Origin: Algoriphagus terrigena DSM 22685 | GTDB lineage: Bacteria; Bacteroidota; Bacteroidia; Cytophagales; Cyclobacteriaceae | Direction: 5' to 3' | Assembly: GCF_000429445.1 (NCBI RefSeq) | Contig: NZ_AUBW01000021.1 | Span: 62,001-126,000 of the forward strand | Length of the DNA stretch: 64,000 nt | Part shown: positions 4,293 through 54,927 of the stretch, in pieces | Numbering within the stretch: the stretch's first letter is position 1 | Layout: each line of letters begins with the position of its first letter | Made by a program: the position numbers and the translations under genes | Notes under the pieces: model-generated | Seen by the model: the letters and a program-made list of their open reading frames with translations, nothing else | Database searches by the model: none | Told to the model about the DNA's origin: nothing

Positions 4293-4298
4293 AGAATT

Positions 4299-6894: not shown

Positions 6895-8075
6895 TGTATT
6901 GACAGGAGGTTGTCCATTTTTTGGGAAAGGTACGATGGACTTTCAGCCGCAACAAAACTTGGATCAAGAAGGGATCGATAGTATCTGATGATATTCTCCT
7001 CAGCAAAGTCCCTCTTCAACAACGTTTTGTTATGTGCTATTTCAGAGGGAGAAAGTCGGTTTAGGAGATTTTGATTGGTCAATTCGTCCATTGAAAAGAC
7101 GACAATTCCCATTTTTTTGAGTTGTGTATATATCGAATTATCTCTGTTCAAAAATACCTTTACTCCCATATATAACAGTCCCAGGATATTCCCAAATGCC
7201 TGCTGAACCAGAGTGTTAAATACCGCAAATCCCATTTCTGATAACTTGGTGTAATAATCCTGCCTTGGCATAAACTTGATAATGATCTCGAGTTGCGCCC
7301 CAAACATGGACGAACCCTTGGCATACACCATCTTGCTGTAGGTAGAATTTCCGTAAGAAAGTGGACAAACCAAGGGCCGATCCACTGCCAATTCCCTCAT
7401 CCTCTCAAACATTTCAAGATGATTATTCTCAGGTACGCCGGCATGGCCAAGGAGAATCTTCTCTCCAGGCTGCTTGCCCTCTCCCGGAATCCCCCTTAGC
7501 AACTCTTCAAAAGACAGCAGTGCGAAAGGCAGCATCTTATAGCTTCTACCGAAAATCCTGGAAGCGTGAGCAACATCCATCTCAAAGATAGACGCGATGG
7601 TACCTATTCGCTGGAAAGACTTTCTATAACTGAAGTAACCCGGCTTTCGACGATAAAGCTTAATCTTCTCCTTCAACCACCGTAGTCCAGTAGGAGGCAA
7701 TATCACTCCCCCTGCGGCGTAAAATCGAGTTTGCGGCAGATAGATCTGCCGGTCAAAAAATGGTGTATTGTACAAATCTCCACTCCAAAGCACCCAAGTA
7801 ACACGATCCGGCGTAATCTCGGCCCGTTCCAGTATGAATCCCAAAAGATCAAAGTGATAGTGAATAACTATTTGGGCATAGCTGTTCAGCTGGTCGGCCA
7901 AAGCACATAACTCAGCATAGTCTCCACCTTTCACCTCCAAACATGGGTGGGGGTATTTGGGCTCGCTTGCACATACATTGATATACCGGTTTTCTCCGGG
8001 AAGGACATGTTCGCACCTTTCGATGATCCATTCGCAATACGGTGAATCCGGAAGAAAAATTAAATTCTTAAGCAT
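6885..8075 (-). CDS. wecF: WecF-like Fuc4NAc transferase (GT56 family)
   Basis: A 396-residue protein matching the TDP-N-acetylfucosamine:lipid II N-acetylfucosaminyltransferase family (Glyco_transf_56). Recognisable blocks are VTWVLWSGDLYNTPFFD, ILLGHAGVPENNHLEMFE, PLSYGNSTYSK, FNTLVQQAFGNILGLLYMGVK and FLNRDNSIYTQLKK, in family order. In enterobacteria WecF adds Fuc4NAc to the lipid-linked ManNAcA-GlcNAc disaccharide of common antigen. Here it directly follows, and overlaps by 8 bp, a WecE homologue that makes the sugar's amino precursor. That supports a 4-amino-4,6-dideoxygalactose-derived residue in this capsule. The native acceptor here is unknown. Confidence 0.85.
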   Translation of the reverse strand: MLKNLIFLPDSPYCEWIIERCEHVLPGENRYINVCASEPKYPHPCLEVKGGDYAELCALADQLNSYAQIVIHYHFDLLGFILERAEITPDRVTWVLWSGDLYNTPFFDRQIYLPQTRFYAAGGVILPPTGLRWLKEKIKLYRRKPGYFSYRKSFQRIGTIASIFEMDVAHASRIFGRSYKMLPFALLSFEELLRGIPGEGKQPGEKILLGHAGVPENNHLEMFERMRELAVDRPLVCPLSYGNSTYSKMVYAKGSSMFGAQLEIIIKFMPRQDYYTKLSEMGFAVFNTLVQQAFGNILGLLYMGVKVFLNRDNSIYTQLKKMGIVVFSMDELTNQNLLNRLSPSEIAHNKTLLKRDFAEENIIRYYRSLLDPSFVAAESPSYLSQKMDNLLSIQCP

Positions 8076-9219
8076 TAACTAATTCAAGTGCTCTTAAAAC
8101 GTGACCAATCACCTCCGTTTGTTGATCCTCTGTCAACTCATAATAAAGTGGCAAGCGAACTAAATTATCAGTGTATAAATCTGCAGCGGCCAGTTCACGT
8201 CCGTCGTGTTTATGACAGAAAAAATCACTTTTATGAAGGCTCAAATAATGGAAAACAGCCAGTATGCCAGCTTTTTTTAGTGACTGAAGCAAATAATCCC
8301 GCTGATTGTCATCGCTGGCAATCAGATAAAACATATGCCCATTGTTCATCGCAAAATCTGGAATTGAGGGTAACCGTATTCCGAACTTCTCCACTTTGCC
8401 GGAGAGGTGGCGATAGTACCTTTCCCAGATCTGGATTCTTTTGGATTGGATGTCATCCAATTGCTCCAACTGTGCCCACAAAAATGCCGCAGTCACTTCA
8501 GAAGGCAAAAAGGAAGAACCAAGGTCAACCCAGCCATATTTATTTACCTCCCCTCTGAAAAATGATGCCCGATTTGTTCCTTTCTCCCAAATAATTTCCG
8601 CTCTATAGGCATATCTCTCATCATTAATTGCCAAAAGGCCACCTTCTCCTGATGAGATATTTTTCGTCTCGTGAAAAGAAAATGTGGCCAGATGTCCAAT
8701 TGAGCCAAGTGGTGTTCTTGTTCCTTTTTTCGAAGAATAAAAGGAATTGATGGAATGGGCAGCATCTTCCACGACGGTTATACCATACCTGTCTGCAAGT
8801 TCCATGATCCGATCCATGTCGCATGCAACTCCAGCATAATGAACAACGACAATCGCCTTGGTTTTCTGGGTAATTAACGATTCGACAGTGTCTTCGTCCA
8901 TTCCCGGATGATCGATTCTACTGTCCGTAAATACGATTTTTGCCCCCCGCAGCATGAATGCATTGGCAGTAGAAACAAAAGTATAGCTGGGCATAATCAC
9001 CTCATCACCTGGCTGTATTTCGAGCAGCAACGCGCACATTTCAAGGGCATCGGTACAGGAGGTCGTGAGGAGCGCTTTTTTTATTCCGTACTTTTGTTCA
9101 AAAAATGTCTGGGCCAGTCGCGTATATTTTCCATTACCCGATATTTTCCCGGTGTTTACCGCGTCAGTGATGTAACCAATTTCCTTACCGGTGATATAGG
9201 GTTTGTTAAATGGAATCAT
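8068..9219 (-). CDS. wecE: dTDP-4-amino-4,6-dideoxygalactose transaminase
   Basis: A 383-residue PLP-dependent sugar aminotransferase (DegT/DnrJ/EryC1 family). The N-terminus MIPFNKPYITG, the block PGDEVIMPSYTFVSTANAF, VVHYAGVACDMD, VVEDAAHSINS and the PLP-lysine motif SFHETKN follow E. coli WecE/RffA almost block for block. It converts dTDP-4-keto-6-deoxyglucose plus glutamate to dTDP-Fuc4N. The precursor enzymes RmlA/RmlB and the acetyltransferase WecD are not in the window. It overlaps wecF by 8 bp and follows two decayed genes, so it is the first intact gene after that gap; whether transcription reads through or starts locally cannot be told. Confidence 0.92.
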   Translation of the reverse strand: MIPFNKPYITGKEIGYITDAVNTGKISGNGKYTRLAQTFFEQKYGIKKALLTTSCTDALEMCALLLEIQPGDEVIMPSYTFVSTANAFMLRGAKIVFTDSRIDHPGMDEDTVESLITQKTKAIVVVHYAGVACDMDRIMELADRYGITVVEDAAHSINSFYSSKKGTRTPLGSIGHLATFSFHETKNISSGEGGLLAINDERYAYRAEIIWEKGTNRASFFRGEVNKYGWVDLGSSFLPSEVTAAFLWAQLEQLDDIQSKRIQIWERYYRHLSGKVEKFGIRLPSIPDFAMNNGHMFYLIASDDNQRDYLLQSLKKAGILAVFHYLSLHKSDFFCHKHDGRELAAADLYTDNLVRLPLYYELTEDQQTEVIGHVLRALELVNA

Positions 9220-9255
9220 GCAGCTGTATAATTGAATTGTATGAGCAACAGTGCT

Positions 9256-10205
9256 TCATTTTGAATTAAAAGGATGGTTGTTAAGAGGAGATTTCACACG
9301 GGAATGATAGTCACCCATCAGCTTAAGAGACTTAATGTGTCGGATATCGTGCACTAATTGAATCCTAATAATGGCTTCTGCAAGACCAAATCCCTTGCCT
9401 TCCAGAATGTGTTGATAGCAGTGCGTATGAAGTTCGGTGAATTCAATTTCTTCCTCTTCCATGAACAGAGAGCGGAAAGTTCTCCCCCCTTTAGTCTTTA
9501 CTGAGTCGAGAAGGGTATCTTCGTCAGTACTCAAAAACCACCTTACATGGGCTTTTTCGAGCTCCAAATATCCAGCAGCCCTATCATGGGAATGGATGTG
9601 GGCCTGACTAGTTTTGACCGAGCCAAGACCCAAGCTAACATATCGTAAATGCACACCAATTTGTTGCAGTGCCCCCAGATTTGCTTACGTCCCCTTTCTA
9701 GGAGGTATAGTACCGATGGCCTCTAGAAGTATATAAGCCAAATCTATAGCATAGATTTTATCCATAGGGCCGTTTTGAATCCGTTCTTTGAAAGCAACTA
9801 TAGACGGATTCAGTCTAAGTTGCGAAATATTAAACACCTTTTTTCGTACTGCTTTTCCACCTCAGCGAGGGCCTCGATGTTCCAAGTATTCAATACCAAA
9901 GGCTTTTCACAGATTACATCGGCCCCGACTCTCAGTCCAAATCGGATATGGGAATCATGAAGGTAATTAGGTAAACAAATGCTCACATATTCTATCCCGT
10001 TTTCCGTTCCCTTCAACTTCTCAACAGGCAGGTCAAATCGCTCAAATTCAGTGAAAAAATCTGCCTCTGGAAAATGACTGTCCATTACTCCGCCACTTTC
10101 AAATTTGTCATACGAAGCTAAAAGTGCATTTCCGGCATCCTTTATTGCCTTCATGTGTCTGGGAGGGATATATCCCGCCGCGTCTATTGGTGCAAAATTC
10201 TTCAT
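9256..10205 (-). pseudogene. wlbA: Decayed wlbA/wbpB: UDP-GlcNAc-uronate 3-dehydrogenase (Gfo/Idh/MocA)
   Basis: Three homologous pieces lie in order but in broken frames. Piece 1 (about 10205-9845) starts MKNFAPIDAAGYIPPRHMK and includes VSICLPNYLHDSHIRF and CEKPLVLNTWNIEALAE, the N-terminal Rossmann part of WlbA/WbpB. The frame breaks in a run of six A (coding strand) near 9839-9844. The shifted frame reads VFNISQLRLNPSIVAFKE and then hits TAA at 9685-9687. Piece 3 (about 9665-9256) resumes with IGVHLRYVSLGLG and HDRAAGYLELEKAHVRWF. The family glycine usually found after MKNFALI is Asp here, another sign of decay. The intact enzyme oxidises C3 of UDP-GlcNAcA on the way to 2,3-diacetamido uronic acids. 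Sequencing error is unlikely to explain several independent lesions. Confidence 0.88.
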
Positions 10206-10279
10206 TCTTTATTTTCTTGAAATTCAATTATAAAGGTCTCCTTCCCAAAATTCCTTTCACTAGTGAATCATTCTATTCC

Positions 10280-10718
10280 CTATCGTATTTTTGAAACAGT
10301 TCCAGATTTAACTTGATATTTTCCCCCTGACTCGGCAGTTTGCTATCCTATCTTGATCAAATACCAGTTTATGTCCATACTCGCTGATCCATCCCTGACG
10401 GGAGGGGTTCCCTACCACCGACCCATATGGCGAGATAGTTTTAGTAACAACTGTACCCACTCCTACAAACGCGAACTCTCGTATGTCATGTAAGCAGACT
10501 ATCGTGGCTACAGGGCTCCTATCGAAGCTCAGTGGCCAACATGGGTTTTGGCGTATTGTCTTCTACGATTAATGGCACTTCTCGGATTGGTCACATGGCT
10601 GAACACCATCGATGGGCCCAAGAATACATCGTCATTGCAAGTTACTCCAGTGTAGACAGACACGTTGTGTTGGATTTCGTACGAAGATCTATCATTTGTA
10701 TTGTTGCCATCTTTTAAT
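10280..10718 (-). pseudogene. wlbB: Decayed wlbB/wbpD: UDP-2,3-diamino-uronate N-acetyltransferase remnant
   Basis: A fragment of a left-handed beta-helix acetyltransferase. One frame gives IQHNVSVYTGVTCNDDVFLG then PSMVFSHVTNPRSAINRR. A second frame gives ATIVC, FAFVGVGTVVTK and VVGNPSRQGWISEYGHKL. A third gives ESGGKYQVKSGTVSKIR and a stop at 10280-10282. These match the middle and C-terminus of WlbB/WbpD, which acetylate the 3-amino group after the WlbA and WlbC steps. The N-terminal third is missing, and the remnant abuts the end of the Wzz-like gene, so a deletion probably joined them. Together with the broken wlbA this shows a lost pathway branch. Confidence 0.85.
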
Positions 10719-11897
10719 CTACTTGACATTTGCTGCTAGTACTTTGTAGAGGTTTACCAAAAAACCTACAAAAAACCCCAAGAAAATGGAGAAAATCAGA
10801 ATCAGTGGCTTATTGGGTTTTGATGCTCCCAAAGGAACAGAGGATTTCTCCAAAACTGTGAAAATAGGCGTTTCCTTTTTCAACTGAATTGCAGCTTGTT
10901 CAGATTCCTGTTTCAGAGAGTTGTAGATATTATAGGCGATGTTAAACTCAAATTCCAGCTGCTCTTCTCTAGTCAACACTTTTCTGGAAACTACCCCTTG
11001 GTTAGAATCCCTAAAAGATGCCAGTCTCATTTGTGCGTCATTAAATTTCTCTTCGCTTTCTTTTACCCGTTCCTCGATAAACTCAATATTCCTCCTCTGT
11101 TTCCCCACCTTGTATTCAGTGACATAGGCGATTAGACGCTCTAAGACTTTGGAATTTACTTCTGCTGCAATGAGAGGTTCCGGCATAGACACATTTAATC
11201 TGATCATCTTTTCTTTTTGCTCAATGAGGATTCTCTTTTTGAGCTCTCCCGCGGCAAAAATCTCCTTCGAAGAAAGATTAAGGTAGTCCATGTCCCCTCC
11301 TTGCGAGGCGGGTAGATCGGCAGGAATCGGACCTGGTGATGAAAACCAGCCAACGATCATACTAGGAATTCCGAGGATAAAATCTAAAGTCTTTTTGAGG
11401 ATGTTGGAGGGTTTTTCTTTAAAGTAGTATTCTTCTAGAGATTGTTTAGCACCTCCTTTTGACTCAAAAACGAACTCTTCTTTCGCTATTGCCAAAAGAA
11501 AATCCCTACTCTGAATTACATCTGGAAAAATGTCTGAAGTCAGGGACATCTGCCCCCCTTGTAACTGAGACATATTAATGCCTGCCAGACCAGCCAATGC
11601 TCCCAATTGGCCCATCGACGAAGTCGCAGAGCCATCAGATTCCAATAATATGTAAGAAGATGCTTGGTATTCCTTGGGAGTCGTAAAGGCTACCAGAATC
11701 CCTAAAAAAAATCCGATCAACACCATTCTGATTAGTACCTTTTTATTTTCAAAGGTAGCCCGGATCAAACCTACGTAGTCCAAGCTGGACTGTTCGTTTG
11801 GGGTATTTCCGTTAGTTCTATGCATGTCGTTGATTAGAGATTTGTTGAAATGCTCATATGCCGATTCTTGTTCTTCCGAATAGAAATAGTTGGACAT
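10719..11897 (-). CDS. Wzz-type chain-length determinant / polysaccharide co-polymerase
   Basis: A 392-residue inner-membrane protein. A cytoplasmic N-terminus of about 53 residues is followed by a helix at about 54-72 (MVLIGFFLGILVAF), a long periplasmic region with coiled-coil character (about 260-340), and a C-terminal helix near 365-385 (LILIFSIFLGFFVGFLVNLY) preceded by the PNKPLI proline motif of PCP proteins. It sets chain length or gates export together with the Wza-like protein. There is no C-terminal tyrosine-kinase domain, so this is a PCP-1/short-PCP-2 type. It lies 26 bp after ugd; its 3' end abuts the wlbB remnant. Confidence 0.9.
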   Translation of the reverse strand: MSNYFYSEEQESAYEHFNKSLINDMHRTNGNTPNEQSSLDYVGLIRATFENKKVLIRMVLIGFFLGILVAFTTPKEYQASSYILLESDGSATSSMGQLGALAGLAGINMSQLQGGQMSLTSDIFPDVIQSRDFLLAIAKEEFVFESKGGAKQSLEEYYFKEKPSNILKKTLDFILGIPSMIVGWFSSPGPIPADLPASQGGDMDYLNLSSKEIFAAGELKKRILIEQKEKMIRLNVSMPEPLIAAEVNSKVLERLIAYVTEYKVGKQRRNIEFIEERVKESEEKFNDAQMRLASFRDSNQGVVSRKVLTREEQLEFEFNIAYNIYNSLKQESEQAAIQLKKETPIFTVLEKSSVPLGASKPNKPLILIFSIFLGFFVGFLVNLYKVLAANVK

Positions 11898-11923
11898 ACG
11901 AGATGAAAGCCGATAATTCTGCC

Positions 11924-13243
11924 TTACTTGGCCCCAATCCCATAGTGAGCGAAGCCGAGGCCTTCCAGATACTTCCTGTCATAGATATTTCGACCATCAA
12001 AGACGACTTTGTTTTTCAACAGCTTGCTGACCACATCCCAGCTAGGGATTCGGAACTCGGACCATTCGGTCACGAGTAGCAGTGCATCAGCATCTACCAA
12101 CGCGTCGTATGCATCCTTACAATAAGTCACCTTGTCAAAGATGTAGTGCGCCCTTGCCTCTTCCATCGATACAGGATCGTAGGCTTTCACATTGGCGCCG
12201 GCCGCTCGTAGTTCGTCGATGATGACTGAAGCAGGAGCTTCCCGCATGTCGTCTGTGTTGGGCTTGAAGCTCAAGCCCCACATCGCAAAGGTCATTCCGC
12301 TGAGATCTTCACCGAAGTGGGCTTTCACCTTGTTGGCCAGCACATGTTTCTGATCGTCATTTACGTCCTCAACCGACTGAAGCACTCTCAGATCATAGCC
12401 ATATTGCTTAGCTGTTTTGATGATGGCTTTCACGTCTTTCGGAAAGCACGAACCACCATATCCCACGCCGGGGTAGATAAACTTATTACCGATTCTTGGG
12501 TCGGAGCCGATTCCTTTCCTCACCATATTGGCATCAGCGCCTACAAGTTCGCATAGGTTAGCGATGTCGTTCATGAACGAGATCTTGGTAGCCAACATGG
12601 CATTAGCTGCATATTTTGTCATCTCCGCAGAAGGAATATCCATGTAGATGATTCGCTCTCCGCTGAGCTGGAAAGGTTTATACAAGCGTTGCATGATCTT
12701 CTCGGCCCGCTCGTCGTCGACCCCGATGACGATCCTATCCGGTTTCAAAAAATCTTCGACGGCTGCGCCCTCTTTCAGGAACTCAGGGTTAGAAGCGACA
12801 GCGAAAGGCAATTCCGAACCTCTTTCTGTCAGGGCATTGTGAATCGCTGTTCTGACCTTTTCACCTGTAGTGACAGGTACGGTACTTTTGGTTGCTACGA
12901 CGATATAGTCGGTCATCTTCCTCCCGATCTCATCTGCTACTGCCAATACATATTTGAGATCCGCAGAACCGTCCTCGCCGGGAGGTGTTCCCACTGCGAT
13001 AAAAGCTACTTCTGCTCCCTGAATAGCCTCTCCCAGATCCGTGCTGAACTGTAACCTCCCACTTTTGAAATTTCGGGTAACGATCTCTTCAAGTCCAGGT
13101 TCATAGATTGGCATAATGCCATTCTTCAGGTTTTCGATCTTTCTCTGATCAATATCCACACAAGTCACTTCGATCCCTACATCTGCAAAACATGCCCCTG
13201 AAACCAGGCCGACGTAGCCGGTACCAACTACTGCTATTTTCAT
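11924..13243 (-). CDS. ugd: UDP-glucose 6-dehydrogenase
   Basis: A 439-residue UDP-sugar dehydrogenase. The N-terminal NAD domain is MKIAVVGTGYVGLVSGACFA. The central dimer domain contains the catalytic cysteine loop GVGYGGSCFPKDVKA, and the C-terminal UDP-binding domain contains MWGLSFKPNTDDMREAP. It oxidises UDP-glucose to UDP-glucuronate with two NAD+. The length and the SCFPKD loop fit the TuaD/Ugd group better than the UDP-GlcNAc dehydrogenase WbpA, which the decayed wlbA/wlbB pathway would have needed. Substrate assignment between UDP-Glc and UDP-GlcNAc is still by resemblance only. It lies 11 bp after the export gene and is co-directional with it. Confidence 0.92.
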   Translation of the reverse strand: MKIAVVGTGYVGLVSGACFADVGIEVTCVDIDQRKIENLKNGIMPIYEPGLEEIVTRNFKSGRLQFSTDLGEAIQGAEVAFIAVGTPPGEDGSADLKYVLAVADEIGRKMTDYIVVATKSTVPVTTGEKVRTAIHNALTERGSELPFAVASNPEFLKEGAAVEDFLKPDRIVIGVDDERAEKIMQRLYKPFQLSGERIIYMDIPSAEMTKYAANAMLATKISFMNDIANLCELVGADANMVRKGIGSDPRIGNKFIYPGVGYGGSCFPKDVKAIIKTAKQYGYDLRVLQSVEDVNDDQKHVLANKVKAHFGEDLSGMTFAMWGLSFKPNTDDMREAPASVIIDELRAAGANVKAYDPVSMEEARAHYIFDKVTYCKDAYDALVDADALLLVTEWSEFRIPSWDVVSKLLKNKVVFDGRNIYDRKYLEGLGFAHYGIGAK

Positions 13244-13254
13244 GAAATAATTAC

Positions 13255-15876
13255 TTACGGATTGTTGTTAATGAATGTCTGCACTAAAATACCAAGCGTG
13301 GCCAGGCTGGTTGCAATGCCCACCCAGGCTGCTGCACCCAATTTTTGCCTCTCAGGCTTTTCGGGAACGACTATCTCCGCGCCCGGCTCCAGATGAGGGT
13401 AAAACTTCAACATAAGAAAGGAATGTGTCCTCCTTGCATCGCCGTTGGCATAGATGACATAGGCTTTACTTTTCCTTGCCTTCTCAGAGAACCCTCCGGC
13501 TTTGGAAATATAGCGTCGGAAACTCGCTCCTTCGACATATCTGGCGGTAGTCGGAAGCAGTACCTCGCCTACCATCCGTATCGTCTGGAGTTCTTTAGGA
13601 ATTCTGAGAATATCCCCTTCCTGCAGGATCAGATCCTCACCTGTCCCGGGGTTTTGGAGAATCTCCGTCAAGTTAATTCCGATGACATCCTGTTGCTTAA
13701 AACGCACGTCATTAAACAGGGTATCCCTCGAAAGAGAGTCTGCAGTCTTCGTGCTGTCGCCCTGAAGAATCCGCTTTTGCTCTTCGATCAGCCTCTGTTC
13801 CTCAATCGCCGAAAGCTTTTCGTCGAGTCGTTCAAAGAGAATGAGTTCCGCCTGATTGATTTGATCTTTGTTTTCCGGATCCACTTTTTCGCGGATTTCC
13901 CGCATCAATTTTTCTTTACTTTGCTCCGGAGTCAGTTCTTTGTAGTAGATCGTTCTCCTTACCAGACTCGCGCCTTTAGGATAGGCAAACTGGTTTAGCC
14001 CGCCGGCACGCTTGACCAAATCCGAAATCCGCTCATCGGCAGAGGAGATGGCAAACGCGCCGGGGTAATTCACCTCACCCTGCACATTGACCAAGAGCTC
14101 CCGCTCAAACCCCGGACTTTTGCGGATAAATACATGATCAAAAGGCATCAAAGGTTGCTTAGATTCCTCCTCAGAAAGCTGGAGATTGGGGTCAATCGTG
14201 AGTGTAACCAACTCTGCAAATTTGCCAGAACTTGTGTCTTTCAGTCTTCTGGCAATCTCGATATAGGAATTGGAGGCAGATTCCAAAAGACCGCCCGACT
14301 GCAAAATCAAATCTCCCACAGTCATGGAAGTCGCGTAAGGGAAAGTGCCAGGTATACTCACTTCACCGGAGATCTTCACATAGTTTTCCTCCTGAATATC
14401 ATACCGGCTGGGAATAAAAAGGAGGTCTTCATTTTTGAGAGCGACATCCGCCGCAGTTCCATCCAAAATTCCCTTAAGATCCAGCGTAGTAGCCGCCAAA
14501 GTCAAATCCGCGCCAGTCCGATAGAGTGTTGCCCGATTGACAAAGGCTTCGGGCTTCAGTCCCTGAGCTTTCTCAATTAAGCCTTTTACAGAAACGCCAT
14601 TCTCAAGCGCATATTCTCCCGGTCGTAAGACAGCACCGGATATTTGTACGCGGTTTACAAACCGGTCCAAAGCCTCTCCGATAAGGATTTCATCGCCATC
14701 CTTTGGATTAAAGTTTTTGAAATCGGCCTGAGCGACATCCAAGACTTTTCGCTCGTTGTTTTCGATCCGTCTCACGGTCAGTCGGTCTTTGTAAGCTTCA
14801 CTGGTAAACCCTCCCGTATAGATATAGAGGTCAGAAAGTGTCTCCTCTGGGAGCACTTCGAAATAACCTTCTCTTCTCACCGGCCCGATGATCTCAACCC
14901 GGGCTTGAACAGGCGGGACGATCACGACGTCATTGTCCCGCAGGGTTATATTAGCCTCAGACTGGCCTTTTGACAAAAACTTGTAGATATCCACCGTAGT
15001 CACCAAACGGCTGTCCCGGTACACTTGGATAGTTCTGAACGATCCATTCTCATTTGGCCCACCGGCAGCGAACAAGCCATTGAAGACGGAAGCAAACGAT
15101 GGCAGGGTGTAGGTGCCCGGCTTGGCCAGCTCCCCAACCATGGAGACTTTGATCGATCGGATGTTCCCCAACCTGACCTGAAGGAACGTACTTGGGTTAC
15201 TGCCTCCCAATCCCGAATAGATGCGCGACAATGCTGTTTTCAGCCTGGCCGTCGCTGCCTCGATGGAAGCTCCTCCCACCTGGATCGGCCCAATATTCGG
15301 GATCATGATACGCCCCTCCGAGGAGACAGTCGCATCAAATGACTCCTGAGATACACCGTAGACGTCTATCAACAACTGATCTCCACTCCCAATGATGTAG
15401 CCCTGAGGCGTCGGGAGATTTAGACTGGGCGTGAAATTGAGATTGCGGTTGTGAAAAAGTTTGTATCCAAAAATCTTCTTTTGGAACGGAGTGAGATCGT
15501 AGTATGGATCAGCTTTCCGGATCGAGTCAAACAAATAATCAGATTCAGTCTGCTCACTGATGTTAAAGCTATCATCCGAGCTGGTCTCAGAACTCAACCT
15601 GACATTTTTCTTTAACTCCATGATCCTTGTCCTCAGCTTGTTCGCCTCTATAGGCGAGAGGCCCTGCTCTCTGGCCATTGCTTCCATCTGAGTTGACGTA
15701 AGTCCGCTGGACTCGGCTCGCTTGATTAGCTGCTCGATCTGGGCATCTGAGAGATTGTCCACTTTCAAATTTCTGAGGTCATTGAGATTTTGGCCCCAAA
15801 CCGATCCGACAAAAAGTAAAAAAACAAAGGAAAGCGCTACCGCTTTGGATACAAAATGAGTATAGAATTGCTTCAC
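13255..15876 (-). CDS. Wza-like SLBB-domain polysaccharide export protein
   Basis: An 873-residue protein with an N-terminal signal segment (AVALSFVFLLFVGSVWGQ, ending near residue 29). Next comes an SAP-like helical segment, then the poly-export domain around residues 155-240 (GYIIGSGDQLLIDVYG) and repeated SLBB beta-grasp units (for example MVGELAKPGTYTLPSF, SGAVLRPGEYALENG, SGEVSIPGTFPYATS, VQGEVNYPGAFAISS, MVGEVLLPTTARYVEG). A charged helical stretch at about 655-720 precedes the last SLBB unit, and a C-terminal hydrophobic helix (AAWVGIATSLATLGILV) may cross the outer membrane as in Wza. It should form the export channel for the polymer. The start is GTG at 15874-15876. The 144 bp upstream separate it from the regulator gene. 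Confidence 0.92.
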   Translation of the reverse strand: MKQFYTHFVSKAVALSFVFLLFVGSVWGQNLNDLRNLKVDNLSDAQIEQLIKRAESSGLTSTQMEAMAREQGLSPIEANKLRTRIMELKKNVRLSSETSSDDSFNISEQTESDYLFDSIRKADPYYDLTPFQKKIFGYKLFHNRNLNFTPSLNLPTPQGYIIGSGDQLLIDVYGVSQESFDATVSSEGRIMIPNIGPIQVGGASIEAATARLKTALSRIYSGLGGSNPSTFLQVRLGNIRSIKVSMVGELAKPGTYTLPSFASVFNGLFAAGGPNENGSFRTIQVYRDSRLVTTVDIYKFLSKGQSEANITLRDNDVVIVPPVQARVEIIGPVRREGYFEVLPEETLSDLYIYTGGFTSEAYKDRLTVRRIENNERKVLDVAQADFKNFNPKDGDEILIGEALDRFVNRVQISGAVLRPGEYALENGVSVKGLIEKAQGLKPEAFVNRATLYRTGADLTLAATTLDLKGILDGTAADVALKNEDLLFIPSRYDIQEENYVKISGEVSIPGTFPYATSMTVGDLILQSGGLLESASNSYIEIARRLKDTSSGKFAELVTLTIDPNLQLSEEESKQPLMPFDHVFIRKSPGFERELLVNVQGEVNYPGAFAISSADERISDLVKRAGGLNQFAYPKGASLVRRTIYYKELTPEQSKEKLMREIREKVDPENKDQINQAELILFERLDEKLSAIEEQRLIEEQKRILQGDSTKTADSLSRDTLFNDVRFKQQDVIGINLTEILQNPGTGEDLILQEGDILRIPKELQTIRMVGEVLLPTTARYVEGASFRRYISKAGGFSEKARKSKAYVIYANGDARRTHSFLMLKFYPHLEPGAEIVVPEKPERQKLGAAAWVGIATSLATLGILVQTFINNNP

Positions 15877-17026: not shown

Positions 17027-19441
17027 TTATTTCAATGTAGTTTTAAAAAGGACATTCTCCGCGTTCTGCTGAGCTCTCAGATCAAAATCCAAATACTCTC
17101 CCGCAGCCCAGATGGGGACAAAATTTTCATAAAATCTACTTCCGGGATTGCCGGATTGCCCACCCGGATAGACTCCAAAGGCCTTGATTTCCGAACCCAA
17201 CTCCACGATCATTCTCCAGCTCGCTCCATGTCTGCTACCGGTCGCGTTCAATATGCCCGATCCGCCACCCGTATAGACATTGGTTGCGGAGAAAGACTTA
17301 AAATTTGGCACCAAATGCTGAATGGTGGTCTTTTTAAAATTTGCCCAGGCATAATCCCCCTCTTCTGCTTCCCATTCGGCCATCTTCACCAGCAGGGAAT
17401 CAAACCCTGCCCGCACGTGACATTCGGCGGTTTCGACACCCTCGAAAGAAGCCACGTCAAAGATAGAATCGCTCGGTGCCGTGGCCATCAATTCAATTGT
17501 CCGGTAGCTGGATGGACGTAAAATGGGCGCTTTGCTGTCCAGAAGCTCTCTCCACACGCTCTCCATTGTTTCCGCCGACCAGATCGAATAGAGGGTCTGT
17601 CCTTTTTGGTTGGGGTCAGCAAAAAAATCCCACGACTTAAGCTCCTGCAGATATCTTTCCGCTTCCGGTGAATCTGACTTATAGGTACCGAGCAAGGTGG
17701 TCAACACGGGAAGCGCCTCCGATGCCTGCAGATTGTAGTCATCAAACTGGAGGGCCATCATGTCCTCTACCGTGATTTGCTCCATTTCCCGAAGCTTTCT
17801 GTTCAGGCGACGATTTCGATACTGTTCAAAGCTATTGTCAAACACATAGTATGGATAGGAAGCATCGGTAGGATATTGGTTTGCCGAGGAGACGAACCCA
17901 CGCTCAGGATTCAGCGTGCTTGCATTCTGGCTATTGGGAATGTATCCCTGCCATTCCAGCCGGGGATCCGCCCCGTCCATCAGAAATTTCCCCTGACCGG
18001 GCCATTTCAGCGGGAATTTCCCCTGAACCCTCATCGCAATATCCCCGGACGCTGAGGCGAACACAAAGTTTTGGGCGGGTGCGGCATAGTGATCAAGGGC
18101 GGCGTTGTAGTCGTTGTGATTTCTGGCCTTGTTCATCAGCAAAAAGGTTTTTTGCTCATTAGCACCTTCGTGCACAGTCCACTTTAAAGCAAAATTTAGA
18201 TCTTGGCGCTCGCTCTTGAACGTCCGATCATACACGACCGGCCCATAGTGCGTATAAACCACCGTATCCATAAACGGATCTTGGCCCTTTACCTTGATCT
18301 CCTCGATGCGAAAATTGGCTTGCCGCCACTCTGCACCGTACTTGTACGATTTACGGCTGTCATCCTGGAAAGTAATCTTGTACCAATCTCGGGTATCTCT
18401 CGTCGCGTTGGTCACACCCCAGGCTATATCATCGTTAAATCCGGAGATCACGCCCAAAGCGCCGGGGAGGGTGGCTCCCTTCACGGTAAGATCGGGTGTA
18501 CTCAGCTGCATCGCGTACCAAAGGGAAGGCAGATTTAGGCTCAAATGAGGATCATTTGCCAAGATCGGATTTCCGTTTTTTGTCTTTTTCCCGGCCACGG
18601 CCCAGTTGTTGGAGCCGGTACCTTCCTCCGGCTGAGGCAATGGCTCAGCGATGATCAGGTCATCGGGATAAGAAATACTGTCAGGTTTAGCGACGGGGAT
18701 TGCGGTGAAATCCCAAATTCGCTCAGCCTCTATAATCGGGTCATTTTCAGTGGGAAAATCCGGGTACAACTTGTCCAATTTGGCCTGACCCAAGATCTTC
18801 CGGAGGTTGGTAAACTCAAGATCCCTATCTCCTACCAGCATGTCCGACATGTACTTCAGAAGCAATACCGACTTGAAGGCAGACCACGGCTCCGGTCGAT
18901 AATTCAGTATCTTGTACTCGACTGGCAATTGGGCTTCCTCCAACTGTGAAATGTACTGGTTGACTCCATCCGCGTAGGCCTCGATCAGGGCAAGTGTCTC
19001 TGGATCATTCTCCTGCAAATATTTCATACCCAGCTCCGCGCCATAGGCCAAACCTTTTCTTCTGGTCATGCGATCCAGTTCGATCGCTATGGGCCCAACA
19101 ATCTCTGAGATCCGTCCGGCAGCAGCCATCGTCTGGAATTCCATCTGCCAAAGTCGATGCTGCGCGGTCACGTAGCCCTGAGCGCGATAGAGGTCTGCTT
19201 CATTTTGCGCAAAAATGTGGGGAATCAGATTTTGGTCATAAACCACTTCGACCGGTGCACTCAGATTTTCAAGATCAATCTCTTCAATAGCAAGCTGATC
19301 TTCACTGATCGAATTTTGCCAAAACCCGTGATTAGGATCTAAAAGTGGAGCAATCGGAGGGATCTCCCCAAGCGGGATCGACACTGCCACAGCCAGCGCG
19401 GCTGTGATCGCCAACACGAAAAAGAAGGAAAAGTACTTCAT
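17027..19441 (-). CDS. Penicillin acylase family hydrolase (Ntn fold)
   Basis: An 804-residue secreted protein. An N-terminal signal segment (FFVLAITAALAVAVSIP) is followed by the alpha-chain region (DQNLIPHIFAQNEADLYRAQ), then the spacer and the autoprocessing site GTGSNNWAVAGKKTKNG. There the serine after TG becomes the N-terminal nucleophile of the beta chain. LANDPHLSLNLPSLWYAM and GVTNATRDTRDWY are further family blocks. Members cleave amide bonds of acylated substrates (penicillins, N-acyl homoserine lactones, other N-acyl compounds); which applies here cannot be told. It should act in the periplasm. It is followed 8 bp later by a small membrane protein gene. Confidence 0.93.
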   Translation of the reverse strand: MKYFSFFFVLAITAALAVAVSIPLGEIPPIAPLLDPNHGFWQNSISEDQLAIEEIDLENLSAPVEVVYDQNLIPHIFAQNEADLYRAQGYVTAQHRLWQMEFQTMAAAGRISEIVGPIAIELDRMTRRKGLAYGAELGMKYLQENDPETLALIEAYADGVNQYISQLEEAQLPVEYKILNYRPEPWSAFKSVLLLKYMSDMLVGDRDLEFTNLRKILGQAKLDKLYPDFPTENDPIIEAERIWDFTAIPVAKPDSISYPDDLIIAEPLPQPEEGTGSNNWAVAGKKTKNGNPILANDPHLSLNLPSLWYAMQLSTPDLTVKGATLPGALGVISGFNDDIAWGVTNATRDTRDWYKITFQDDSRKSYKYGAEWRQANFRIEEIKVKGQDPFMDTVVYTHYGPVVYDRTFKSERQDLNFALKWTVHEGANEQKTFLLMNKARNHNDYNAALDHYAAPAQNFVFASASGDIAMRVQGKFPLKWPGQGKFLMDGADPRLEWQGYIPNSQNASTLNPERGFVSSANQYPTDASYPYYVFDNSFEQYRNRRLNRKLREMEQITVEDMMALQFDDYNLQASEALPVLTTLLGTYKSDSPEAERYLQELKSWDFFADPNQKGQTLYSIWSAETMESVWRELLDSKAPILRPSSYRTIELMATAPSDSIFDVASFEGVETAECHVRAGFDSLLVKMAEWEAEEGDYAWANFKKTTIQHLVPNFKSFSATNVYTGGGSGILNATGSRHGASWRMIVELGSEIKAFGVYPGGQSGNPGSRFYENFVPIWAAGEYLDFDLRAQQNAENVLFKTTLK

Positions 19442-32810: not shown

Positions 32811-35156
32811 ATGCTTCAAACAATCAGTCGAAAAGAATTTTTGGCACAAATGGGACTCTTGGGCACGTCCGCTCTACTTTTCAACGCCTGCGATTTCAAT
32901 TCGCTTCGGCAGAAGGGCATCGAAGGTGCCGCCCCTATCATCGACACTCCTCTGGATACAGAGGACGTTTTTGCCTACATCCGAAGGACCGCAGGAGAAT
33001 ACGACCAAACGCTTTATCGCCAGATCATCGGTGCTGCCAACGAGTTTAAGGAAGGTGACCTGACCCTTGGGATCGCCGCGGAGTCCGAGACTTCCCGCCA
33101 AAACGCCCGAAGTCTTTTGGCAAATACCACCATCGGAGACCTCAAGACAAACAGCCTTTTTACCGACGAGCTCTACGAGTTGATCGCAAAAAATACAGCA
33201 ACAAACAGCAAGCTTGACAGCTGGACTCTCGGTGAATTGAAGGTATTTCTACTTACCAAAACCGAAGCTGAGATCAAAGCCATCATGCCCGCTCTGTCCA
33301 GCGACGTGATCGCCTGTGTCGTCAAGTTGATGGACAACGACGAACTGATCCAAGTGGGACAGAAAGTGTTCAATCCCATCCCCGGCACGCAGATCGGCAG
33401 CAAAGGCTACATGAGCGCCAGAGTGCAGCCCAACTCCCCCACAGATAATCCTACCGACATCGTCTGGCAGGTTTTTGACGCGTGGAGCTATGCAGTAGGT
33501 GATCTGGTCTTGGGAACAAATCCAGTCTCCAGCGATCCTCGATCGGTCGCAGAAATCGAGAAAGCACTCTTTGAGGTGCTCACCACTTTTGGCTTGGAAA
33601 AGACCATCTCCAACTGCGTGCTCTCCCACATCGATGTCCAGGCCGAGGCGGAAAAAATCTATCCCGGAACCTCTGGAATCTGGTTTCAGAGCATCGCCGG
33701 TACAGTCAATGCCAATCAAACCTTTGACGTGTCGATCGACAAGATGCTGGCGCACATGGAGAGCCGAACCGGGCAATTTGGGCTCTATGCCGAAACCGGC
33801 CAAGGCGCAGACTTCACCAACGGACATGGCGAAGGCTTCGACATGGTGGTGCATGAAGCAAGAAAGTACGGCTTCGTACGGGCCTTGCAGGCGAAGCTTT
33901 CCGAAGGAAAAAGTCCCGAAGAGACGCCTTGGGTGCATGTAAATGATGTAGCTGGATTCATCGGGCCGGAAGTCTTCAAAAGCAAAGAACAACTCGTCAG
34001 ATGCTGTCTGGAAGACACAGTGATGGGCAAACTGCACGGATTGACCATCGGTCTGGATGTGTGCTCGACGCTCCACATGGATGTCTCCCTGGATGATCTG
34101 GACTGGTGCATTGCCCAGATCATGCCGGCGAATCCCGCTTATCTGATGGCTTTGCCTACCAAAAACGACCCGATGCTGAGCTATCTGACGACCGGTTTTT
34201 ACAACCACGTCAAGATCCGCGAACAGTTTGGCTACAAGATCAACGACGCGATGTGGGACTTTTTCAAAAAGATCGAAGTCATCGGCGCCGACAACCGTCC
34301 CACCGAGCATTTTGGCGATCCGACTTGGGTATATTACCAATACCAACTCGCCAAAAAAGATCTGAGAACCAAGGAGGAGATTTTGGCCGAAGGAAGAAAA
34401 ACCATCGCCGAAATTGAGGAACGGGGCGTCCCGATCGCGCAGGGTTTTGGAGAAAACGTCTGGGATCTGAATCCCGAACTCGACAAAAAGATCCATGAAC
34501 TCTACGAGGACGCCAAGGTCAGCCTTTGGGCTGAGATGCCGAGTTCATTCGTCCAAGCTATTCCTGCTGCCATTCCGCTGATCACCCAAAGCAAGGACCG
34601 CAAGGACTACGTCTATCATCCGGAAACCGGCGAAAAACTCAGCAAACAGACTTCTGATCAGTTGACCGCGATGCGGACCGGATGGGGAAGTGAAGCTCCA
34701 GACCTTCAAATCGTCATCTCTGACGGTCTCAATGCTTTGGCTTTGACAGACGATAATCATCTCTTTCCTTTTCTGGAAAATCTGACCGCTCAGCTCAAGT
34801 CCAGGGGCTATCACATCAGCCCGCAAAACGCGGTGTTTACCCACGGTCGGGTGAGAGCGGGATATGCCACTGGGGAAGCGCTTTTTGGAAATCTTCCGAA
34901 TTCCGAACAGAAAAAAGGCATCATCCACATCATTGGCGAGCGGCCCGGCTCAGGCCATCACGCCTTTTCTGCCTACATCACCGCGGCTCCGGTTGGGCTG
35001 TGGAGCACCCAGGGGAAGGTCGACCACGACATCACGCGTGTGGTGTCTGGAATCTCTGACACCTCGCTCCGACCGACACTTGCCGCGGAGGAAGTCGCAG
35101 AGATCTTTGACGGCTTATTCCAGAAAAAGGGGCTCGAAGCATCATCCGTCGCGTAG
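32811..35156 (+). CDS. eutBC: Single-chain ethanolamine ammonia-lyase (EutB-EutC fusion) with export signal
   Basis: A 781-residue protein. Residues 1-27 look like a Tat-type lipoprotein signal: SRKEFL, a hydrophobic stretch, then LLFNAC with Cys27. Residues about 55-505 are EutB: YRQIIGAANEFKEGD, GYMSARVQPN, LVLGTNPVSSD, LYAETGQGAD (Glu328 aligns with the catalytic Glu287 of E. coli EutB), DVAGFIGPEVF and NDPMLSYLTTGFYNH. Residues about 530-775 are EutC: PDLQIVISDGLNALALTDDN, HGRVRAGYATGEALFG and IHIIGERPGSGHHAFSAYI. The family uses adenosylcobalamin to turn ethanolamine into acetaldehyde and ammonia. No other eut gene or microcompartment shell gene is nearby. Fusion and a periplasmic location are both unusual against the E. 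coli enzyme. Confidence 0.9.
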   Translation: MLQTISRKEFLAQMGLLGTSALLFNACDFNSLRQKGIEGAAPIIDTPLDTEDVFAYIRRTAGEYDQTLYRQIIGAANEFKEGDLTLGIAAESETSRQNARSLLANTTIGDLKTNSLFTDELYELIAKNTATNSKLDSWTLGELKVFLLTKTEAEIKAIMPALSSDVIACVVKLMDNDELIQVGQKVFNPIPGTQIGSKGYMSARVQPNSPTDNPTDIVWQVFDAWSYAVGDLVLGTNPVSSDPRSVAEIEKALFEVLTTFGLEKTISNCVLSHIDVQAEAEKIYPGTSGIWFQSIAGTVNANQTFDVSIDKMLAHMESRTGQFGLYAETGQGADFTNGHGEGFDMVVHEARKYGFVRALQAKLSEGKSPEETPWVHVNDVAGFIGPEVFKSKEQLVRCCLEDTVMGKLHGLTIGLDVCSTLHMDVSLDDLDWCIAQIMPANPAYLMALPTKNDPMLSYLTTGFYNHVKIREQFGYKINDAMWDFFKKIEVIGADNRPTEHFGDPTWVYYQYQLAKKDLRTKEEILAEGRKTIAEIEERGVPIAQGFGENVWDLNPELDKKIHELYEDAKVSLWAEMPSSFVQAIPAAIPLITQSKDRKDYVYHPETGEKLSKQTSDQLTAMRTGWGSEAPDLQIVISDGLNALALTDDNHLFPFLENLTAQLKSRGYHISPQNAVFTHGRVRAGYATGEALFGNLPNSEQKKGIIHIIGERPGSGHHAFSAYITAAPVGLWSTQGKVDHDITRVVSGISDTSLRPTLAAEEVAEIFDGLFQKKGLEASSVA

Positions 35157-53164: not shown

Positions 53165-53560
53165 ATGAAAACAAAACTTCTATTCCTGCTTGTCTTGTTC
53201 TTTGCCGGAGCGGACTCTTTTGCCCAAACTGCTAAAAAAGACTCCATTAGTGTTCTTTCTGTGGAAAATTTTGCAACAAAAAGCTCGAAGAAAAATACTC
53301 TGGTAATCGATGTCAGAACTCCCGAGGAAGTGGCAGAAGGACATCTGCCCGGCTCGGTGAACATCAATTTCCTTGGTGAAGATTTCGCTCAGCAGATCGA
53401 CGTTTTGAACAAAAAAACCACATACCTGGTCTATTGCAAAACCGGAATCAAAAGCCGAAAAGCCGCTGACCTGATGCAGAAAGCAGGATTTAAACACGTC
53501 TACATGCTCGAAGGCGGATATACGGCATGGACACAAGCAGGAAAACCGACAGAAAAATGA
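53165..53560 (+). CDS. Periplasmic rhodanese-domain protein
   Basis: 131 residues. Signal peptide KTKLLFLLVLFFAGADSFAQ is followed by one rhodanese domain: LVIDVRTPEEVAEGHLPGSV and the active-site loop VYCKTGIKSRKAADLM with the catalytic cysteine, then GFKHVYMLEGGYTAW. It transfers or carries sulfane sulfur, probably in the periplasm. Its TGA overlaps the ATG of the aldehyde dehydrogenase gene (ATGA), so the two are co-translated although no metabolic link is obvious. Confidence 0.93.
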   Translation: MKTKLLFLLVLFFAGADSFAQTAKKDSISVLSVENFATKSSKKNTLVIDVRTPEEVAEGHLPGSVNINFLGEDFAQQIDVLNKKTTYLVYCKTGIKSRKAADLMQKAGFKHVYMLEGGYTAWTQAGKPTEK

Positions 53561-54927
53561 GCAAGATCCAATCGATCAATCCCTGGACTGGCAAGGTCGT
53601 CAAGGAATACAATCCCCTAACCGAAGAGGAAATAACGGCCAAAACCCAACGGGCAGCCACAGCTTTTGAAAGCTGGAAGACCACGCCTATCTCTGAGAGA
53701 GCCGCCCTGATGAAAAAGGCTGGCGAAGTCCTTCGGAAAAACAAGGAAGAATATGCCAGGTTGATCACCGTGGAAATGGGCAAGATAATCCGGGAGTCCC
53801 GGGCCGAGATTGAAAAATGTGCATCCGTCTGTGACTACTATGCGGAGAACGCAGCACAGTTTCTTTCCCCTGAGGAAATCAGTCTCACGGACGGTAAAAA
53901 GGCTAAAGTGCTCCACCAACCCTTGGGCGTAGTCTTGGCGGTGATGCCCTGGAATTTCCCGTTTTGGCAAGTATTTCGATTTGCGGCCCCTACCCTAATG
54001 GCCGGGAATACAGGCATCCTGAAGCACGCATCGAATGTACCTCAGTGCTCCCTTGCTATTGAATCGGTCTTTCGGGACGCTGGATTTCCAGAAGGTGTCT
54101 TCCAAAGCTTTTTGATCGACTCCAAAGCCACTTTGGCACTGCTGGAGCAAGACGAAGTCAAAGCCGTGTCTCTAACCGGAAGCGAAAAAGCGGGAGCTGC
54201 AGTGGCCGCCGCTGCCGGAAAGAACATCAAAAAATCCCTCCTGGAACTTGGCGGAAGCGATCCCTTCATCGTCTTGGCAGATGCGGATATTGAGAAAGCT
54301 GCCGAGACAGCAGTCAAAGGCCGGATGATCAACTTTGGTCAAAGCTGTATTGCCGCCAAGCGATTTATCGTTGAGGAGGCTGTTTTTGAGTACTTTTTGG
54401 CACTGTTCAAAGAAAAGATGAATGTGCTGAAGATGGCCGATCCTCTGGACGAAAGCTCGGATTACGCCTGTATGGCAAGGCCTGATTTGGCGGCAGAGCT
54501 TTATTCCCAAGTAAAAAAATCCGTGGATATGGGGGCCAAAGTCCTTCTGGGAGGTCATCCACCCGAGGAGGGAAGCGCGGGATTCGTACCTACCATTCTG
54601 ACTGATATCCCTACAGACTCCCCAGCATTTTCTGAGGAACTCTTTGGTCCCGTGGCTACTGTTTTCAAAGTGAAAAATGCCCAGGAAGCGATCCAGCTCG
54701 CGAACGCGACGGAATTTGGATTGGGCGCCTCGCTTTGGACGGAGGACCTGGAAAAAGGAGAAACCCTTGCTGCTCAAATCGACAGTGGCGCGGTGTTTCT
54801 CAACGCGATGGTTGCCTCGCAGCCGGGCCTTCCGTTTGGCGGGATCAAGAAATCCGGATTTGGACGCGAACTGGGCAGAGAGGGTATCTTGGAATTCGTC
54901 AACACCAAGTCCGTTTACCTCGGCTGA
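53557..54927 (+). CDS. Aldehyde dehydrogenase, succinate-semialdehyde type
   Basis: A 456-residue NAD(P)-dependent aldehyde dehydrogenase starting MSKIQSINPWTGKVVKEY at 53557 (10 upstream in-frame codons belong to the rhodanese overlap). Motifs are VMPWNFPFWQVFRFAAPTLM, the Rossmann loop VSLTGSEKAGAAVAA, the general-base block LELGGSDPFIVLADAD, the nucleophile in NFGQSCIAAKRFIV and PFGGIKKSGFGRELG. The short form and these blocks fit the Sad/YneI (NAD-type succinate-semialdehyde dehydrogenase) group. The exact aldehyde is uncertain. Confidence 0.92.
   Translation: MSKIQSINPWTGKVVKEYNPLTEEEITAKTQRAATAFESWKTTPISERAALMKKAGEVLRKNKEEYARLITVEMGKIIRESRAEIEKCASVCDYYAENAAQFLSPEEISLTDGKKAKVLHQPLGVVLAVMPWNFPFWQVFRFAAPTLMAGNTGILKHASNVPQCSLAIESVFRDAGFPEGVFQSFLIDSKATLALLEQDEVKAVSLTGSEKAGAAVAAAAGKNIKKSLLELGGSDPFIVLADADIEKAAETAVKGRMINFGQSCIAAKRFIVEEAVFEYFLALFKEKMNVLKMADPLDESSDYACMARPDLAAELYSQVKKSVDMGAKVLLGGHPPEEGSAGFVPTILTDIPTDSPAFSEELFGPVATVFKVKNAQEAIQLANATEFGLGASLWTEDLEKGETLAAQIDSGAVFLNAMVASQPGLPFGGIKKSGFGRELGREGILEFVNTKSVYLG

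Follow-up and report, generated by a model that had tools for sequence, protein, structure and literature searches.

A fused ethanolamine ammonia-lyase gene with an export-type N-terminus in Algoriphagus terrigena

Can an ethanolamine ammonia-lyase (EAL) be built for work outside the cytoplasmic membrane? EAL is the textbook suicide-prone B12 radical enzyme and is tied to the cytosol by ATP for EutA, by an adenosyltransferase and often by a shell against acetaldehyde. The question is raised by a gene in a 64,000-nucleotide stretch of Algoriphagus terrigena DSM 22685 (contig NZ_AUBW01000021.1, positions 62,001 to 126,000), the whole of which is called the window here. This gene encodes the large (EutB) and small (EutC) subunits as one chain behind an N-terminus of export type. 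The explanation that we favour is that it makes an EAL built for work outside the membrane, which we consider probable. Judged from sequence, export is very likely, and a working EAL outside the membrane is likely.

One chain with an export-type N-terminus

The open reading frame (ORF) runs uninterrupted on the forward strand from the ATG at 32811 through the stop codon ending at 35156 and encodes 781 aa. A first-pass annotation, made by a model from the letters, had read a single EutB-EutC polypeptide here from the motifs GTNPVSSD, YAETGQG, NDPML, VISDGLNALAL, GRVRAGYATGE and GERPGSGHH, and all six do lie within this one frame. Pfam places EutB at residues 69-499 (449.9 bits, cut-off 25) and EutC at residues 565-773 (109 bits, cut-off 25.8). 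With the NCBIfam models, EutB scores 592.9, above the cut-off of 554, and the EutC equivalog scores 76.4, far under the cut-off of 230. The features are listed below; the rows referred to are those of the alignment described in the next section.

32811-35156 (+): fused export-type ethanolamine ammonia-lyase gene, 781 aa (ORF, Pfam, 80/80 relatives fused)
32811-32891 (+): signal-peptide-like N-terminus, residues 1-27, ending at the candidate lipidation Cys27 (sequence, AlphaFold, N-termini of relatives)
32826-32843 (+): Tat-like motif S-R-K-E-F-L, residues 6-11, Lys at the second position (sequence, relatives by rule)
32889-32891 (+): Cys27, candidate lipobox cysteine, FNA-C (sequence, relatives by rule)
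32958-33041 (+): conserved block opening the mature part, residues 50-77, consensus GEDxFxYIxRxxGxFDxTLYRQIxGAAN (export-type alignment)
33015-34307 (+): EutB (large-subunit) domain, residues 69-499 (PF06751, 449.9 bits; Foldseek 3abo_A, E 3.1e-32)
33420-33428 (+): R204 and Q206, E. coli EutB R160 and Q162 (97/97 export-type rows)
33519-33521 (+): N237, E. coli N193 (97/97 export-type rows)
33792-33794 (+): E328, E. coli E287, inside YAETGQG (97/97 export-type rows)
34002-34004 (+): Cys398, among the compared rows in export-type members only (93/97 export-type, 0/24 others)
34056-34058 (+): D416, E. coli D362 (97/97 export-type rows)
34107-34109 (+): Cys433, among the compared rows in export-type members only, possible disulfide partner (97/97 export-type, 0/24 others)
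34308-34502 (+): interdomain linker, residues 500-564 (between the Pfam limits; largely helical in the predicted model)
34503-35129 (+): EutC (small-subunit) domain, residues 565-773 (PF05985, 109 bits; Foldseek 3abo_B, E 8e-11)

In the N-terminus, MLQTISRKEFLAQMGLLGTSALLFNAC, a brief basic segment precedes the S-R-K-E-F-L, hydrophobic residues and Cys27 that the annotation had described. The motif resembles a twin-arginine translocation (Tat) signal and reads R-K-E-F where a twin-arginine signal would read RRxF. At the lipobox place, near relatives of the window lyase have FQAC, FNSC or WNAC. The A. terrigena genome encodes TatC (205 bits). Besides the lyase, four candidate Tat-type proteins (three RR, one RK) were found near the Bacteroidota loci, a number too small to tell how usual RK is in that phylum.

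An AlphaFold model of the lyase was built from a 53-member alignment, with a mean predicted local distance difference test (pLDDT) of 89.4 and a predicted template modelling score (pTM) of 0.86. It has a helix at residues 7-26, pLDDT below 50 at residues 23-38 and a confident core after that. The best solved matches found by Foldseek are E. coli EutB (3abo_A, TMt 0.88) and Listeria EutB, and E. coli EutC (3abo_B) comes next (TMt 0.71), so that the predicted fold agrees with the first-pass assignment to EAL. Compared with its two nearest relatives, the gene has dN/dS values of 0.036 and 0.060 at saturated dS (2.6 and 1.7), and two further pairs were not computable; given that saturation, the codon changes fit purifying selection. 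A 415-aa open frame at 33249-34496 on the opposite strand, within the EutB part, was taken as a shadow ORF.

Relatives, signals and the tree

One scan of genome contigs gave 192 confirmed relatives, the best 80 of which were used for the fusion and signal counts. EutB and EutC are fused in 80/80 with the same arrangement as in the window, so the window fusion is not a sequencing artefact. The hosts belong to Bacteroidota, Planctomycetota, Acidobacteriota, Myxococcota and Desulfuromonadia/Desulfobacterales, and the closest relatives are from A. aestuariicola (85% identity) and A. oliviformis (84%). Signal classes were assigned with simple rules applied to the first ATG in frame, with six starts set by hand. 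This gave 36 RRxF, 30 RxxF and 9 general secretory (Sec)-type signals, 4 relatives with none visible and 1 cut by a contig end (L059, with a lipobox-like remnant). One of the four, L081, has RRSFL behind a later ATG, and the final tally is 67 Tat-like (36 RRxF, 30 RxxF and L081), 9 Sec-type, 3 without a signal and 1 truncated. Fusion and export-type signal, whose joint conservation the annotation had proposed as a check, thus go together in this set. By rule, a lipobox-like Cys is found in 29/80 relatives, including 22 of the 30 RxxF ones, although a few of these calls (e.g. L087) may be chance. In each of two Archangium genomes the export-type clade is represented by two copies; one (L096, L108) has a hydrophilic N-terminus and the other (L223, L224) a Tat lipoprotein-like signal. 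The latter begin MRRRTFMK, a clear RR signal with a Cys ending the hydrophobic stretch.

Within individual groups the gene is patchy, as expected of an accessory trait. A full-length export-type gene is present in 7 of 148 genomes of the family of A. terrigena (its own included), plus one contig-end fragment in another, and in 2 of 395 genomes of the phylum sample, its own included. It is missing from three genomes of the same genus in these family and phylum samples. A sample of 146 genomes from the class of genome G165 gave 18 export-type copies in 12 genomes, four of which also supplied loci to the scan above: 16 are Sec by rule, L161 was called Sec by eye (the rule had caught RSKFL) and L168 is RR.

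As controls we used 30 EutB-only loci, in which EutC was never in the EutB frame (0/30) and was usually a separate adjacent frame (26/30). Seventeen of these and E. coli EutB were included in the alignment and tree, and their starts mostly lie ~23 residues before the core. Six fused relatives (L009, L010, L171-L174), 36-39% identical to the window protein, have cores that begin at residue 12, which leaves no room for a signal, and they start downstream of the block at residues 50-77 that the export-type members share. These six form a second fused EutBC family with frames of ~710-760 aa and no N-terminal extension, spread over two genomes from the A. terrigena family and four from the G165 class. 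The export-type rows number 97 (106 extracted minus 8 duplicates and L059), including the three without a signal.

Quick trees of the EutB part were made with 121 and 62 rows, with support from the approximate likelihood-ratio test (SH-aLRT) and without bootstrap. A branch with SH-aLRT 99 separates the export-type rows from all others, and another with SH-aLRT 99 does so for the six signal-less fused rows; signal-less EutB, fused or unfused, lies outside the export-type branch. In the 62-row tree, which carries a long-branch warning, two further signal-less fusions, L225 (genome G170) and L227 (G178), group with the unfused EutB side, so the sequences suggest that the fusion arose at least twice. 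Signal types are strongly clustered on the tree: the six groups require 10 changes, where shuffling gives 67.9. Across the clade, the export-type N-terminus is conserved and the export route is not.

The residues R160, Q162, N193, E287 and D362 of E. coli EutB, which we take to be substrate contacts, are invariant in the export-type (97/97), signal-less fused (6/6) and unfused (17/17) rows. Two cysteines separate the groups: Cys433 is present in 97/97 and Cys398 in 93/97 export-type rows, and both in 0/24 of the others; the four export-type rows without Cys398 retain Cys433. In the predicted model they sit at a similar depth on two barrel helices that follow one another, which would make a Cys398-Cys433 disulfide possible. 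Overall cysteine content of the EutB region is slightly lower in the export-type rows (mean 1.43 per 100, against 1.85 and 1.76 in the others), a weak difference with overlapping ranges.

Gene neighbourhoods and cofactor supply

The A. terrigena genome has exactly one EutB and a PduO-type adenosyltransferase. No match to the microcompartment (BMC) shell family PF00936 was found genome-wide, and its one match to the EutA model (27 bits over 68 positions) reads as FtsA beside FtsZ, so that the pairing of EutA and BMC shell that marks the enterobacterial eut system was not found in this genome. The annotation had noted that no eutA, shell or aldehyde dehydrogenase gene is adjacent, and this is true of the 10 flanking ORFs that were scanned with Pfam, which include an esterase-like protein, a catalase-peroxidase and a radical-SAM protein. 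In all, the Pfam scans covered 30 window ORFs besides the lyase, and these contain a single aldehyde dehydrogenase family gene, at 53527-54927 (+), ~18 kb off, a possible but unlinked acetaldehyde consumer. Elsewhere in the window, an 804-aa penicillin-amidase family protein (17027-19441, -) adjoins a polysaccharide-synthesis cluster (~1255-15876).

Among 31 other genomes with the fusion (that of L031 excluded), several of which are metagenome-assembled genomes (MAGs) and possibly incomplete, full-length EutA was found in 2 (G170 and G178), short weak matches in 24 and no match in 5. PF00936 matches occur in 9 of 35 genomes, in all nine on contigs other than that of the fusion, and in none of the remaining 26; shell genes linked to the fused lyase were thus found in none of the 35. 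Rfam gave no match at gathering score in the whole window, and so no cobalamin riboswitch upstream of the lyase gene, and none of that family was found in 8 other Tat-type loci; one lies in L207 of genome G610 and none in five other Desulfuromonadia sources. In a search for shared neighbours in Bacteroidota and Planctomycetota, no widely spread protein cluster besides the lyase emerged from the 81 loci compared; most of these neighbours had no Pfam scan. One neighbour family of ~560-800 aa recurs in five loci (L039, L042, L044, L056, L094).

The Sec-type Desulfuromonadia loci have a recurrent neighbourhood. We compared 19 distinct Sec-type stretches (L109 and L222 being a single locus) with the genes of G610. 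In 12 of the 19, the lyase, a three-helix membrane protein, BtuD, BtuF and MoxR follow in order, usually with a binding protein upstream of the lyase and, where the stretch is long enough, with DUF58, a 576-aa protein and a VWA protein beyond MoxR. This order is kept in L219 and L220 despite proteins only 27-62% identical to those of G610. BtuC was found by Pfam in L082, the cluster stretch searched for it. Of the others, L077 has MoxR alone, L208 has only the binding and membrane proteins (and Gcw), L078, L079 and L217 have none of the Btu/MoxR cluster, and L066 and L221 are too short; the RR-type stretch L218 also has none of it. Across 82 loci, MoxR is nearby in 6/10 Sec-type, 0/68 Tat-like (0/44 of those of at least 15 kb) and 0/4 other loci, but most Sec loci belong to a single class and do not count as independent events.

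In G610 the stretch L206:1191-11675 holds MoxR, DUF58 and two VWA proteins beside an export-type EAL and BtuD/BtuF; its 576-aa, 266-aa and three-helix membrane proteins have no family. A molybdenum/tungsten riboswitch lies near this cluster at L206:837-956 (-). The genome has only two EutB, both export-type fused lyases, ~29 kb apart and 71% identical; the interval holds cobalamin genes and a CobA adenosyltransferase, and we infer that it fits Pelobacter carbinolicus DSM 2380.

G178 carries both kinds of enzyme. Its two export-type copies (L166, L188) each have a substrate-binding protein and a membrane protein, and one also has BtuD/F, MoxR and DUF58. The same genome has a signal-less fused EutBC of 731 aa, and at L227:1422-9537 EutH, EutA, this EutBC, an amino-acid permease and an adenosyltransferase stand in a row. 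Here the cytosolic helpers accompany the cytosolic enzyme. In G170, the signal-less fusion (L225) and EutA are on separate contigs.

A probable enzyme outside the membrane, rival readings and known systems

What the analysis shows is one fused chain, signal-type N-termini and active-site residues that are conserved, a predicted fold and the gene neighbourhoods; export, lipidation, cofactor loading, activity and substrate of the window lyase are inferred as follows. With the subunits in one chain, a single signal peptide would export both. The signal of the window lineage would be Tat-derived and, since a lipobox-like Cys ends it in most close relatives, the mature enzyme would probably be a periplasm-facing lipoprotein; adenosylcobalamin would be loaded in the cytosol prior to export. 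Ethanolamine from membrane-lipid turnover would be split outside into ammonia and acetaldehyde, both diffusing inward. Because cleavage would take place outside, no ethanolamine permease or shell would be needed, and the aldehyde would form outside the cytosol. Desulfuromonadia would send out the same enzyme via a Sec signal, and its cofactor would thus have to be acquired in the periplasm, with loading probably by the neighbouring cobalamin-uptake and MoxR/VWA proteins, which would replace EutA. The first-pass proposal of Tat export with cobalamin preloaded in the cytosol is therefore plausible for the Tat-like members but cannot be general, as the Desulfuromonadia copies are Sec-type. The wider scheme, of a widespread class of adenosylcobalamin radical enzymes outside the cytoplasm in which Tat members are preloaded and standalone and Sec members receive their cofactor, and perhaps reactivation, in the periplasm from dedicated Btu and MoxR/VWA proteins in place of EutA, is less likely than not.

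Several points weigh against an exported, working EAL. The Tat motif has Lys at its second position in the window, and some Bacteroidota relatives have N, E, T or D there; the strict twin arginine is lacking. At the cysteine, LLFNA-C has Asn at -2 and so deviates from what we take to be the strict lipobox pattern, [LVI][ASTVI][GAS]C. The signal classes come from simple rules. Homologues without a signal, which the annotation had named as evidence against export, do occur, in 3/80 (L096 and L108, both Archangium, and L100, a Cytophagaceae MAG), though both Archangium genomes also hold the RR-signal copy. None of the 10 flanking ORFs is tied to ethanolamine, the EutC part is weakly similar to known EutC (76 bits against the NCBIfam cut-off of 230), and no activity or localisation data were found for any export-type member. 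No ATP is expected in the periplasm. EAL is a suicide-prone adenosylcobalamin enzyme that in known systems needs the ATP-driven EutA, according to PMC5821096. No route for reactivating an exported enzyme is apparent, least of all in Tat-type members without a nearby MoxR cluster.

The alternative that survives best, which we nevertheless regard as unlikely, is that the enzyme is exported but always acquires cobalamin outside, the Tat-like motif being a relic or preference. The window protein would then be an ordinary Sec lipoprotein, fed from a periplasmic cobalamin pool that outer-membrane receptors supply. Consistent with this, Sec-signalled relatives are plentiful, many Bacteroidota have another residue in place of the second Arg (K, also N, E, T and D) and the window h-region is moderately hydrophobic (11-residue mean 1.76). 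However, the RxxFL core persists around the lost Arg, which resembles Tat descent, full RRxF is found in 36/80 and the adenosyl group has no known source in the periplasm. The lack of MoxR at the 68 Tat-like loci is likewise as expected without outside loading, albeit confounded with phylum.

We consider it rather improbable that the protein is exported but is not an EAL, i.e. that it is a cobalamin-binding lipoprotein for scavenging or storage, or a lyase of another amino alcohol such as choline. The loci of Bacteroidota and Planctomycetota show no shared ethanolamine partner genes (neighbours mostly without a Pfam scan), the A. terrigena genome lacks EutA, and the ethanolamine and choline lyases of P. 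carbinolicus are maybe distinct enzymes, as Aklujkar et al. suggested for its two copies (PMC3543383). On the other side, all five substrate-contact residues are kept in 97/97 rows, beyond the needs of a binding protein, ethanolamine or choline supports growth of P. carbinolicus strains (PMC3543383), and the genome that fits this species has no other EutB. Very unlikely is a cytosolic enzyme with an N-terminus that anchors it in the membrane, targets it to a microcompartment or is an extension without function: EutC of known systems does carry an encapsulation peptide (PMC5821096), 3/80 relatives lack a signal and signal-less fused families exist, but RR, RxxF and Sec signals with a positive n-region, a hydrophobic core and often a Cys occur in one clade, 26/35 genomes (A. 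terrigena included) have no BMC match and the other nine have it on other contigs than the fusion, and the two cysteines are found only in export-type rows.

If the enzyme does work outside the membrane, a multi-phylum clade that keeps an export-type signal by differing routes would break the cytosol-only rule for EAL. This raises two testable questions: how an adenosylcobalamin enzyme is supplied and kept up without ATP, and whether cells can use ethanolamine that has not crossed the inner membrane. Known systems require that crossing, and in them EAL becomes inactivated and is reactivated by EutA (PMC5821096). No report of an exported EAL was found in the literature searched, which is weak evidence of absence as subscription papers lay mostly outside it.

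The nearest described system is that of P. carbinolicus, whose two lyases were called 'an unusual fusion' by Aklujkar et al. (2012; PMC3543383). Pcar_0491 and Pcar_0467 resemble the window lyase in being one chain, in belonging to the same clade and in lacking eutA, and differ in their Sec-type signal, in being two copies and in their 43-gene cluster with cobalamin genes. Periplasmic binding proteins are noted there, and the accessible text does not state export of the lyase itself. The fused chain that the annotation had singled out is real, but a fusion was already in print and signal-less ones also exist: the fusion is known in kind, whereas the clade-wide export-type signal is unreported as far as we searched.

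E. coli EutBC (PDB 3abo) shares with the window lyase both domains, the predicted fold and the five substrate-contact residues. It differs in its separate chains, in an EutB without an N-terminal signal and in lying near EutA, EutH and a shell protein. The signal-less fusions L227 and L225 are likewise single-chain EutB-EutC but have no signal and fall on the unfused side of the tree, and L227 adjoins EutH, EutA and a permease. Reductive dehalogenases (RdhA) are Tat-exported corrinoid enzymes and in this are like the window lyase; their fold and chemistry are different, and they are not known to be adenosylcobalamin radical enzymes. The mxaRSACKL module serves the periplasmic PQQ methanol dehydrogenase. 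In gene content the Sec-type cluster resembles this module: a MoxR ATPase, DUF58 and membrane-bound VWA proteins lie next to a cofactor enzyme of export type. A role in maturing methanol dehydrogenase and other enzymes is ascribed to MoxR proteins (PMC3893208). The export-type EAL is a concrete candidate client for the MoxR/VWA cluster.

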